Shown piece after piece: positions 9,946 to 12,876 of a stretch of 12,892 bases of DNA. The position numbers were made by a program, and so were the translations under genes. Position 1 is the first letter of the stretch. The number at the start of each line of letters is the position of its first letter. The notes beneath the pieces were generated by a model that was not told the origin of the DNA, ran no database searches, and was given only the letters and a program-made list of their open reading frames with translations. The DNA is from Demequinaceae bacterium UBA4004 (GTDB taxonomy: Bacteria; Actinomycetota; Actinomycetes; Actinomycetales; Demequinaceae), in contig DGBM01000146.1 in the NCBI GenBank assembly GCA_002384765.1, positions 1 through 12,892 of the forward strand, in the 5' to 3' direction.

Positions 9946-11016
9946 CTAAGGGACCACGTTGATCCACTCCGGCGTGGAGAACCTCTGCCCGACGAGGACG
10001 TGAGCCTTCTCGACCTCCGCGTCGGTCACGGCGCCCGCAACCGTCGTGTAGTGCGACGCGAAGTGACCCAGGAACGACTCGATGATCGCCTCGCGCGTCA
10101 TGCCGGTCTGGCTGCGCAACGGGTCCACGCGCTTGTTGGCGCTCTTGGTGCCCTTGTCCGACAGCTTCTCCCGGCCGATGCGCAACACCTGCAGCATCGC
10201 GTCGGCGTCGATGTCGTAGGCCATGGTGACGTGGTGAAGGACTGCGCCCGAGGTGTACCGCTTCTGCGCGGCGCCCGCGATCTTGCCCGCGGGCGAAGCG
10301 ATGTCGTTGAGCGGCACGTAGGTGGCCCGAATCCCGAGCTGGCGCAACGCCCCGAGCACCCAGTCGTCCAGAAACGCGTACGACTGCTCAAAACTCAGCC
10401 CCTCCACCAGGGAGGTGGGTACGTAGAGGGAGTAGGTGATGGTGTTGCCCGGCTGGATGAACATCGCGCCGCCGCCCGAGACGCGACGCGTCACGGTGAT
10501 GTGGTGCGCGGCCGCACCCTCGGGGTCGATCTCGTTGCGCACGGACTGGAAGGAGCCGATCACGACGGTGTTGCGCTCCCACTCCCAGATCCGCAGGGCC
10601 GGGCCGCGCCTGCCCGCGCCAACCTCCTTGGCGAGCACGTCGTCGAGCGCCATCTGTAGGTGCGGCTCGCGCGGCACGTCGTGGATCACGTCAAACGTGT
10701 GGTCGTGCCAACTGGTGGCGTGGCCCAGGGCACGCCGCACCGCGATCGCGACCGCCTCGGGACTGAAGCCGATGAGCTGGGCGCCGGGCCCCGCCGCGCG
10801 CGTCAGCGCGGCCGTCATGTCCGCTACCGATGCGGTGGCGGGCAGGCCGACGAGCGACGCGTTCATGGCTGGTAGCGCCTCCGGAGGTTCCAAGAAGAAG
10901 TCCCCCGAAATCACCGCGCCACTCACCGCGGCATCGGCGCCGTCGCCGTGCGTCTCGATGTCGGCGACCACGAGCTTGCCACCAGGAATCTTGTATTCAC
11001 CATGCACGGTGTCCAT
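9946..11016 (-). CDS. Lipoate-protein ligase A family protein with N-terminal accessory domain
   Basis: A 356-residue (353 from the GTG) cytoplasmic enzyme of the biotin/lipoate ligase fold, likely attaching lipoate or a related acyl group to lipoyl domains. The N-terminal part (about 5-98) reads HGEYKIPGGKLVVADI ... SGDFFLEPPEAL ... LIGFSPEAVAIAVRRAL. This resembles the accessory domain that is C-terminal in E. coli LplA. The catalytic domain (about 105-340) has TRRVSGGGAMFIQPGN (176-191), the lysine loop PAGKIAGAAQKR (242-253, Lys245) and LHHVTMAYDID (260-270). The ATG at 11016 has GAGGG about 5 nt upstream. The GTG at 11007 has GACAAT 7 nt upstream and starts exactly at HGEYK; both starts are possible. 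It follows cimA by 48 nt. Octanoyl versus lipoyl substrate is undetermined. Confidence 0.87.
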   Translation of the reverse strand: MDTVHGEYKIPGGKLVVADIETHGDGADAAVSGAVISGDFFLEPPEALPAMNASLVGLPATASVADMTAALTRAAGPGAQLIGFSPEAVAIAVRRALGHATSWHDHTFDVIHDVPREPHLQMALDDVLAKEVGAGRRGPALRIWEWERNTVVIGSFQSVRNEIDPEGAAAHHITVTRRVSGGGAMFIQPGNTITYSLYVPTSLVEGLSFEQSYAFLDDWVLGALRQLGIRATYVPLNDIASPAGKIAGAAQKRYTSGAVLHHVTMAYDIDADAMLQVLRIGREKLSDKGTKSANKRVDPLRSQTGMTREAIIESFLGHFASHYTTVAGAVTDAEVEKAHVLVGQRFSTPEWINVVP

Positions 11017-11064: not shown

Positions 11065-12663
11065 CTAGTGGGGCGCGACGTTTGCCTTGAGGAGCCCGTA
11101 GAGCAGCGCATCGGTGAGCGCCTCCCATGAAGCCTCAATAATGTTGGGCCCCACGCCCACGGTGCGCCACGAGATGCCCGTCTCGGTATCCACCGTGGTG
11201 ATGAGCACGCGCGTCACGGCGTCCGTGCCGTGCGACGCGTCCATGATGCGCACCTTGAAGTCGGTCAGCTCGAACCGTTCGATCTCGGGGTACACCGATG
11301 TGAGCGCCCCGCGCAGAGCGTGGTCCAGCGCGTTGACGGGTCCGTTGCCCTCGCCGACGGTGGTGACCCGGCGGTCGCCTCCCATGCGCAGTTTGACAAC
11401 GGCTTCCGCGTCCGCGTCGGTCGGGTCGGAGGGGGCGGACGCGACGTTCACCTTCCATGACTCGACGGTCCAATAGGAGGGCATGCCGCCGATCTCGGAG
11501 CGGAGCAGCAGATCGAACGAGGCGTCGGCCGCGTCGAAGGTGTAGCCGGCGGCCTCCGCGTTCTTGACGCGGTCGGTGACGCGGCCCAGCAGCTCGGACT
11601 GGCCGGCGAGGTCGAAACCCAGCTCCTTGCCCTTGAGCTCGACGGAGGCGCGGCCGGCCATTTCCGACACCAGCATGCGCATGTCGTTGCCCACGCGAGA
11701 CGGATCCGTGTGCTGGTAGAGGTCCGGGTCCACCTTGATCGCGGAGGCGTGCAGTCCGGCCTTGTGCGCGAACGCCGACGCGCCCACGTACGGCTGGCGA
11801 GGGAACGGCGCGATGTTGGTGATCTCGGAGATCGCGTGGGCGATGCGGGTGGACTCCCTGAGTCCGTCGCCCTTGAGCGCGATCATGCCGCGCTTGATCT
11901 CGAGGTTCGCGGCCACTGCTATGAGGTCGGCGTTGCCGGTGCGCTCGCCGTAGCCGTTGACGCAGCCCTGCACGTGGGTGACGCCGGTCGCGACCGCCGC
12001 CATGGTGTTCGCCACCGCGCAGCCCGAATCGTTGTGCGCGTGCATGCCGAGGGCGCAGTCGGTGCGGGAAGCCACATCGGTGACGATGCGGGTGACGTCG
12101 TCGGGGAGCATGCCGCCGTTCGTGTCGCATAGCACCAGCGCCGACGCTCCCCCCGCCTGAGCGGCCAGCAACGCCTTCACCGCGTAGTCCCCGTCAAAGC
12201 GGTAACCGTCAAAGAAGTGCTCGGCGTCCAGGATGACCCGGCGTCCCTCATCAACCAGGAACGCGACCGTCTCCTCGATCATCCTCAGGTTTTCATCGCC
12301 GCTGACACGCAGCGCGCGCTCCGCGTGGCGAATGTCGGACTTGGCGACCAGCGTCACGATGGGCGCCTCGGAGTCGAGCAGTGCCCTCACCTGCGGGTCG
12401 TTGGCCGCGGTGGTGCCGCCGCGCCGCGTCATGCCGAACGCCGCGAACTGGGCGTGGGCAAAGGTGAGTTCCTTGTTGACGAGAGCGAAGAACTCGGTGT
12501 CCTTGGGGACGGCTCCTGGCCAGCCGCCCTCGATCACGCCCACGCCGAGTTCGTCCAACAGTGCCGCTATCGCCATCTTGTCGGCCACCGAGAGGTTCAT
12601 GCCCTCTTGCTGGGCGCCGTCACGCAGGGTGGTGTCGTAGATCTCGACGGTGAGATCCGCCAT
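11065..12663 (-). CDS. cimA: (R)-citramalate synthase
   Basis: A 532-residue cytoplasmic enzyme condensing pyruvate with acetyl-CoA to citramalate, the first step of the threonine-independent route to 2-oxobutyrate and isoleucine. The DRE-TIM catalytic barrel shows DTTLRDGAQQEGMNLS (10-25), EGGWPGAVPKD (45-55), VLCDTNGGMLP (177-187), the metal ligands in GMHAHND (206-212) and GYGERTGNADL (227-237). HKAGLHASAIK (300-310) leads into the linker. A C-terminal LeuA-type regulatory domain spans about 400-530 (DHALRGAL, FKVRI, GVGPNIIEASWEAL), usually the site of isoleucine feedback. EGGWPG and the overall length point to CimA rather than LeuA or homocitrate synthase. ATG 12663 has GAGGAG 6 nt upstream. 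A longer frame to 12840 crosses the terminator and is rejected. Control is by the leader attenuator described separately. Confidence 0.95.
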   Translation of the reverse strand: MADLTVEIYDTTLRDGAQQEGMNLSVADKMAIAALLDELGVGVIEGGWPGAVPKDTEFFALVNKELTFAHAQFAAFGMTRRGGTTAANDPQVRALLDSEAPIVTLVAKSDIRHAERALRVSGDENLRMIEETVAFLVDEGRRVILDAEHFFDGYRFDGDYAVKALLAAQAGGASALVLCDTNGGMLPDDVTRIVTDVASRTDCALGMHAHNDSGCAVANTMAAVATGVTHVQGCVNGYGERTGNADLIAVAANLEIKRGMIALKGDGLRESTRIAHAISEITNIAPFPRQPYVGASAFAHKAGLHASAIKVDPDLYQHTDPSRVGNDMRMLVSEMAGRASVELKGKELGFDLAGQSELLGRVTDRVKNAEAAGYTFDAADASFDLLLRSEIGGMPSYWTVESWKVNVASAPSDPTDADAEAVVKLRMGGDRRVTTVGEGNGPVNALDHALRGALTSVYPEIERFELTDFKVRIMDASHGTDAVTRVLITTVDTETGISWRTVGVGPNIIEASWEALTDALLYGLLKANVAPH

Positions 12664-12710
12664 GGTCGTCTCCTCGTTCCAAAGGTGCTCCGCGCTGCCA
12701 TCATCCCAAC

Positions 12711-12739
12711 AAAAAAGCCCCCCAAGACGTCGGGAGGCT
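12711..12739 (-). terminator. Intrinsic terminator in the cimA leader
   Basis: Minus strand AGCCTCCC (12732-12739) pairs with GGGGGGCT (12716-12723) as an 8-bp stem with one G-U pair and an 8-nt loop. A run of six Ts (12711-12716) overlaps the end of the stem. This textbook rho-independent terminator lies 47 nt before the cimA ATG, inside the leader. Confidence 0.88.
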
Positions 12740-12762
12740 GCGCGTCGGGGTTCCCGACGCGC
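12740..12762 (-). promoter_or_regulatory. Leader hairpin 1:2 (anti-antiterminator)
   Basis: A perfect 10-bp stem with a 3-nt AAC loop begins at the last base of the leader-peptide stop codon. It is the most stable structure in the leader and would keep arm 2 away from the terminator. Arm 1 could also pair 7 bp with the CCCGACG at 12728-12734, an alternative fold. Confidence 0.75.
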
Positions 12763-12797
12763 TACGGAATGATGATTGCGGTGTACATCGCCTTCAT
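12762..12797 (-). CDS. cimA leader peptide MKAMYTAIIIP
   Basis: An 11-codon ORF ends with three consecutive Ile codons (ATC ATC ATT), Pro and TAG immediately before the first leader hairpin. Ile is the end product of the pathway that cimA starts, which is the logic of an attenuator leader. No strong Shine-Dalgarno site is seen. An in-frame ATG at 12836 would give a 24-residue version (MVRTRLIAEWCAT plus the same 11 residues), so the true start is uncertain. The Ile run and stop position are unaffected by that choice. Confidence 0.75.
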   Translation of the reverse strand: MKAMYTAIIIP

Positions 12798-12876
12798 TGT
12801 GGCACACCACTCGGCGATGAGCCGCGTTCGCACCATTCATTTCCGCTGAACCCTGAGCAGATCATCCCCGCTGGTC

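Follow-up and report, generated by a model that had tools for sequence, protein, structure and literature searches.

A predicted isoleucine-codon attenuator upstream of the citramalate synthase gene cimA in actinobacteria

The enterobacterial trp, his and ilv attenuators combine a leader peptide rich in cognate codons, an intrinsic terminator and an antiterminator formed between arms 2 and 3. For actinobacteria, Seliverstov et al. (2005) described leaders for trp, cys, ilvB, leuA, leuS and trpS and T-boxes at ileS, with conserved structures not seen upstream of other amino acid pathway genes; cimA goes unmentioned in the sections of that paper drawn on here (PMC1262725). The leuS attenuators of Streptomyces carry a leader ORF with a Leu run, hairpins and a terminator, and the LEU element of leuA is described as a pseudoknot in which leucine codons pair with the Shine-Dalgarno box (PMC1262725). 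At ilvB, a short ORF with branched-chain codons lies at a hairpin and is followed by an intrinsic terminator (PMC1262725; PMC8079986). Leaderless translation has been reported for leaders of Streptomyces lividans, including IlvL (PMC8079986), and of Corynebacterium glutamicum (PMC11857589). The S. lividans study names eight leader peptides, none of them for cimA, and neither 'citramalate' nor 'cimA' occurs in its main text (PMC8079986). The Corynebacterium ilvB-II and ilvBNC leaders have two stems, the second an intrinsic terminator, and a translated uORF (PMC10272879; PMC11857589). Our search of openly licensed literature for a cimA or citramalate attenuator or leader peptide found nothing relevant.

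CimA is the entry to the threonine-independent isoleucine route. Upstream of a cimA gene of Demequinaceae bacterium UBA4004 we find a leader of similar design, which is very probably a ribosome-mediated transcription attenuator coupling cimA to charged tRNA-Ile. That isoleucine is the regulator, that the terminator acts in vivo and which way the response runs are all three inferred from sequence.

The leader in the window

The window is the whole 12,892-nt stretch analysed, and the leader and cimA lie on its minus strand. The original prediction, an Ile-codon attenuator in front of citramalate synthase, placed the leader correctly before that gene (TIGR00977, 581.9 bits against a cut-off of 450). 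It was also right in describing a short ORF with three adjacent Ile codons (ATC ATC ATT, 12776-12768), a 10-bp hairpin that begins at the stop codon (12762-12740), and an intrinsic terminator with six Ts (12739-12711). The features are as follows:

12796..12806, minus strand: -10-like promoter motif TGTGCCACAAT, with the hexamer CACAAT at 12801-12796; a match to the family motif TGTGGCANNNT
12762..12788, minus strand: leader peptide ORF MYTAIIIP*, probably leaderless; from sequence, with the start from comparison with relatives
12768..12776, minus strand: three Ile codons, the last ending 5 nt before hairpin 1; from sequence
12764-12762, minus strand: stop codon TAG of the leader ORF; from sequence
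12740..12762, minus strand: hairpin 1, 12762-12753 with 12749-12740 (10 bp, 3-nt loop); from fold and covariation
12716..12739, minus strand: intrinsic terminator hairpin, 12739-12730 with 12725-12716 (10 bp), directly abutting hairpin 1; from fold and covariation
12711..12716, minus strand: terminator U-tract, six T, the first paired in the stem; from sequence
11065..12663, minus strand: cimA, citramalate synthase, 532 aa; TIGR00977 equivalog

The leader ORF reads ATG TAC ACC GCA ATC ATC ATT CCG TAG (12788-12762, minus strand), the last base of its stop codon is the first G of hairpin 1, and 47 nt separate the end of the T-run from the start of cimA (12663). The 103-nt leader folds at -50 kcal/mol, compared with -32.05 +/- 3.36 in dinucleotide shuffles (z -5.34; none of 200 folds as well). 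In the whole-leader fold, GGGATGAT (12700-12707), just past the terminator, pairs with the Ile-codon region; by eye, the same letters are also present in relative L001 and absent from L002. The gene adjoining cimA (9946-11016, minus strand) encodes a fused lipoate-protein ligase, LplAB (NF053751, 562.9 bits, cut-off 550).

The start of the ORF was corrected by comparison with relatives. The family -10-like motif matches at 7 or more of its 8 positions in 116 of 156 cimA leaders, compared with 2 of 77 control stretches further upstream. At a motif score of at least 6, it is present in 144 of the 156 leaders examined; 138 of these 144 have an in-frame ATG or GTG within 15 nt, and in 118 the in-frame start lies 6-8 nt past the motif. 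The original prediction began the ORF at 12797 (MKAMYTAIIIP*); that ATG overlaps the -10-like motif and was rejected, and the spacing in relatives points to the second ATG, at 12788, which lies 7 nt after the motif and is most likely the true start (MYTAIIIP*). Because this motif is conserved in the family at such a distance, the transcript is probably leaderless, as S. lividans IlvL is reported to be (PMC8079986).

Conservation, codon runs and spread

Using a CimA protein scan, we kept the best 80 loci and scanned the upstream 420 nt of each for a hairpin followed by a terminator, ignoring codons. A tandem-hairpin leader is present at 33 of these 80 loci, with no qualifying structure at the other 47. 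At least two consecutive Ile codons, read by eye, lie a few nucleotides before hairpin 1 in 32 of the 33; the exception is Isoptericola (L004), with one Ile codon. By title, 32 of the 33 loci are actinobacterial and the other, L026, is from an uncultured bacterium; the genera represented include Demequina (which has the closest CimA proteins among the best 80 loci, at 88 and 80% identity), Cellulomonas, Isoptericola, Cellulosimicrobium, Pedococcus, Kribbella and Nocardioides. Acrocarpospora, Planotetraspora, Nonomuraea, Motilibacter, Amycolatopsis, Kutzneria, Lentzea and Pseudonocardia are also found among the 33, as are actinobacterial bins. At 11 of the loci lacking the element (L009, L016, L022, L024 and L027-L033), cimA by eye lies close behind the end of an apparent ilvE-type gene, and so probably has no promoter of its own.

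We aligned 32 cimA leaders (31 distinct), chosen beforehand for Ile-Ile, in which 96.6% of cells across the hairpins are paired. Two-sided changes number 52, compared with 14.0 +/- 2.9 in shuffles (0 of 500 as many) and at most 7 in slid controls. The lower five pairs of hairpin 1 are invariant in these leaders and the upper five covary. A covariance model built from these 32 cimA leaders only (R1) was used to collect further elements, and among 151 distinct cimA matches (from sets A2 and A3 below) the GCGCG and CGCGC strands at the base of hairpin 1 are present in 145 and 143, respectively, the loop of hairpin 1 ranges from 2 to 59 nt, and one unpaired base separates the hairpins in all 151 in the model alignment. 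Unconstrained minimum-energy folds, in which both hairpins coexist, likewise give a spacing of 0-2 nt in 151 of 157 distinct cimA elements, 34 of 35 ilvB, 2 of 2 leuA and 11 of 17 leuS elements; those that could not be parsed lack a TTTT (5 cimA, 6 leuS) or have a misplaced arm (1 cimA, 1 ilvB).

The leader family is widespread. In a sample of 394 genomes from the class of genome G002, R1 matches 254. CimA is encoded (E 1e-100) in 310 of the 394, of which 242 have an R1 match anywhere and 68 do not; a further 12 R1-positive genomes lack CimA at this threshold. We assigned downstream genes by the best tblastn hit among four references (CimA, IlvB, LeuS and LeuA, with representatives identified with NCBIfam), and the 223 matches classified (220 distinct; 200 distinct among the first 203) comprise 166 before cimA, 36 before ilvB, 17 before leuS, 2 before leuA and 2 assigned to none of the four. 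The matches came from four sets: set A2, with 26 sources preselected for CimA, gave 81 cimA, 1 ilvB and 1 unassigned among 83; set A3, from the top of the R1 match list over the 394 genomes, gave 80 cimA of 80; set A4, mostly second or third matches per genome, gave 27 ilvB, 6 leuS, 5 cimA and 2 leuA among 40; and an additional 20 gave 8 ilvB, 11 leuS and 1 assigned to none of the references. A4 and these additional 20 are the only samples of weaker matches. None of the 223 is assigned to ilvA, a gene absent from the four references.

Beyond these sets, among 30 genomes with element-free cimA loci R1 matches three, with four weak matches in all. Two of the weak matches (L262, L265) are in one Acidimicrobiaceae genome (G397), outside the main class, and precede a leuB-like gene, whose leader ends in AVVVAIG*, and a leuA-like one, both named from reading of the proteins; the tandem-hairpin leader design may be older than the class. 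Two Ile-run leaders with the same tandem hairpins, ending ..RIII* (L138:1501-1587, minus strand) and ..LVIIM* (L268, G185:C37:283430-283517), are found in two genomes of ~6.5 Mb before genes not matched to cimA, ilvB, leuS or leuA. The 103-aa ORF behind L138 resembles a small ACT-type subunit, with no Pfam match.

At a per-genome E <= 1e-3 the cimA-only model recovers elements of ilvB, leuS and leuA, and the codon run tracks the gene: Ile-Ile(-Ile) at cimA; Leu-Val-Val, Ile-Leu-Val-Leu and similar at ilvB; and Leu-Leu(-Leu) at leuS and leuA. The ilvB leader L181 encodes MRTRILVLGKRVG*, identical to the published S. lividans IlvL peptide (PMC8079986). At least two consecutive Ile codons occur in 139 of the 151 distinct R1-selected cimA elements, and one in the other 12; these counts are biased because the source leaders of R1 were picked for Ile-Ile, and the structure-only scan (32 of 33) is the fairer test. 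In A4, three of the five cimA matches carry two or more Ile codons in a row; L152 carries a single one, and L147 lacks a run. Three cimA leaders (L131, L139 and L222) have a lone Ile codon followed by Thr (MTSCITT, MTQHCITP and MASTCITT), which may reflect either drift or another kind of sensor.

The position of the run is also nearly fixed: in 102 of the 151 elements its last Ile codon ends 5 nt ahead of hairpin 1. The stop codon takes one of two positions, starting 2-4 nt before arm 1 in 91 elements and 7-23 nt after the start of arm 1 in the other 60. The residue preceding the run is Ala in the window and Leu or Val in 82 of the 151, so relatives may sense more than isoleucine. ATT accounts for 187 of 343 Ile codons in the leaders, compared with 157 of 835 in the cimA genes of 49 loci, where it is the minor Ile codon.

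These observations bear on two explanations that dispense with sensing through a translated peptide. If the short ORF were incidental and no amino acid were sensed, the leader could be a constitutive partial terminator or a structure at the transcript end, and the terminator alone would lower cimA transcription; but this reading is at odds with a codon run at a near-fixed offset that switches with the gene (Ile, Val/Leu, Leu), with the conserved promoter-ORF spacing, and with two stop-codon positions at both of which a ribosome would cover arm 1; we regard it as highly improbable. Even more improbable, in our judgement, is that a riboswitch, T-box or bound protein regulates cimA with no leader peptide being translated. 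A recognition element could lie in the near-invariant GCGCG/CGCGC base of hairpin 1, but this base is paired and closes a loop of very variable length, and which codons are repeated depends on the gene. Rfam searched at gathering score gives no match in the window, and in three whole relative loci searched up to E 1 the sole match overlapping a leader is a sub-threshold ar14 on L046 (25.7 bits, gathering score 58.8; E 0.28).

Alternative pairings and ribosome geometry

The original prediction also gave most weight to a stall at the third Ile codon, with arm 2 thereby freed to pair with the 3' arm of the terminator. In a classical attenuator of this type, a ribosome at the third Ile codon would cover arm 1, the freed arm 2 and loop would pair with the terminator 3' arm, and hairpin 1 would serve as anti-antiterminator. 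The letters for this competing pairing, CCCCGACG with CGTCTTGGGG (12743-12750 with 12720-12729), are indeed complementary in the window, where the 2:4 region scores -14.2 kcal/mol compared with -15.5 for the terminator arms (RNAduplex scale). Across 151 elements (a redundant set), 2:4 and loop:4 slightly exceed dinucleotide shuffles (-11.00 vs -10.27, z -4.1, and -8.21 vs -7.83, z -5.1, respectively), and a similar pairing, of the P1 loop with the P2 right shoulder, has been proposed for Corynebacterium ilvB-II (PMC10272879).

In non-redundant members such a pairing has no sequence-specific support. We compared each element's own arms with arms exchanged between elements in 44 members with similarity below 0.80, a test that is insensitive to pairing between invariant bases. 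The two hairpins stand out (1:2, z -13.8; 3:4, z -8.4), whereas nine other arm and loop pairings do not (z +0.7 to +2.7), including that of the loop and arm 2 with the terminator loop and 3' arm (2:4, z +0.8) and loop:4 (z +1.0); in two loop-length subgroups of the 44, the lowest z for an alternative pairing is -0.9. Permutation in the 151 redundant members does single out loop:4 (z -2.6) and leader:2 (z -3.1). The loop:4 candidate lost its permutation signal after redundancy removal, although it still beats shuffles at 151. Leader pairings were run on the 151 members, where leader:2 reaches only z -1.4 against shuffles and pairing of the leader with arm 1 is not above shuffles.

The cimA family thus differs from the ilvB-II model in having no supported alternative pairing (PMC10272879). 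It shares cognate codons and a terminator with the enterobacterial trp, his and ilv attenuators, but the 2:3 complementarity that forms their antiterminator is not above random in the 44 non-redundant members. Folding with half of arm 1 blocked gave no conserved alternative hairpin, and when we looked by eye for hairpin 1 reaching into the terminator base, no such extension looked conserved. Alignment of leaders from relatives had been proposed as a check on three stems: the Ile run and both hairpins are conserved and the hairpins covary as anticipated, but the competing third stem lacks covariation support, and an antiterminator with such support, as expected for a trp-type attenuator, was not found.

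A ribosome footprint extends 13 nt counting from the first A-site base (12 nt beyond it) in E. coli toeprints. Applied to the 139 members with at least two Ile codons, this geometry gives a hairpin 1 of -21.8 kcal/mol without a ribosome. With stalls at the first, penultimate and last Ile codons, 0.9, 1.7 and 4.6 nt of arm 1 are covered on average, and hairpin 1 falls to -19.8, -18.2 and -9.8 kcal/mol, respectively. Once the stop codon is reached, arm 1 lies fully under the ribosome in 137 of 139 members and hairpin 1 is reduced to -0.5 kcal/mol. Hairpin 1 is thus predicted to form under a waiting ribosome and to open once the peptide is finished, at either stop position. Partial coverage at the last Ile codon is in keeping with the classical scheme, but full coverage at the stop codon implies that arm 2 is freer in fed cells than during an Ile stall, and both fed and starved states would free it; on the E. 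coli footprint, the idea that a third-Ile stall acts by freeing arm 2 is weak. Being closer to arm 4, arm 3 should also have the kinetic advantage. We therefore consider the classical scheme doubtful.

The proposed switch and its setting

Whatever the switch, attenuation governed by Ile codons is supported by the recurrence of the Ile run, hairpins, terminator and promoter-ORF spacing across actinobacterial families, and by the codons for their own pathways in sister elements on ilvB, leuS and leuA. In the course we propose, RNA polymerase would start at or beside the leader ATG, so that translation of the 8-codon peptide would use no Shine-Dalgarno site. Under a shortage of Ile-tRNA, the ribosome would stall on the Ile run and transcription would read through into cimA; when isoleucine is plentiful, the ribosome would reach the stop codon and the terminator would end transcription. 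A report that changed regulatory codons had no effect on regulation of Streptomyces coelicolor ilvB (cited in PMC1262725) would count against reading the Ile codons in this way.

The geometry favours hairpin 1 itself, over a separate pairing of arms 2 and 4, as what would turn the terminator off. Since hairpin 1 is predicted to be open when the peptide is finished and abuts the terminator, it may act as an antiterminator by exclusion. We put forward tentatively, as a possibility for the whole cimA, ilvB, leuS and leuA class, a switch without alternative base pairing, in which a formed hairpin 1, 0-2 nt from the terminator base, could not be accommodated while that base closes inside RNA polymerase. 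With a ribosome paused at an early Ile codon, hairpin 1 would form (ON); with one at the stop codon, in either position, arm 1 would be covered and the terminator could close (OFF).

The exclusion switch resembles the 2025 model of C. glutamicum ilvBNC, where an antiterminator hairpin lies directly beside the terminator; that model differs in invoking a three-nucleotide overlap and an upstream anti-antiterminator (PMC11857589), whereas the hairpins of the cimA family coexist in folds. Mutation of the start codon in C. glutamicum lost 80% of ilvBNC expression (cited in PMC11857589), and exclusion by hairpin 1 would conflict with this result unless an upstream anti-antiterminator exists.

The cimA leaders have a codon run for the product amino acid, a terminator 0-2 nt past hairpin 1 and a model in common with ilvB and leuS. 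Because the cimA-only model finds ilvB, leuS and leuA leaders with gene-matched codons, the cimA leader appears to be an Ile member of the actinobacterial leaderless class. It differs from the ilvB attenuators in carrying Ile codons and targeting the citramalate route, and from the Streptomyces leuS attenuators in that those carry Leu codons and target a tRNA synthetase (PMC1262725). The leuS leaders that R1 finds show a Leu run and the tandem hairpins of the cimA leaders. The class of leaderless branched-chain amino acid and leuS attenuators in actinobacteria is known; what is new is the conserved, predicted Ile leader on cimA.

A threonine deaminase model (TIGR01127) exceeds its cut-off in 9 of 10 CimA-bearing genomes sampled, where both isoleucine routes thus probably coexist. 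With R1 matches in 254 of 394 genomes, and 166 of 223 classified matches before cimA, many actinobacteria seem to equip the citramalate branch with an Ile-reading leader of its own. The cimA, ilvB, leuS and leuA leaders would be joined in one family with interchangeable codon runs and an antiterminator that is not visible, and this view makes the switching of actinobacterial attenuators testable by simple mutants.
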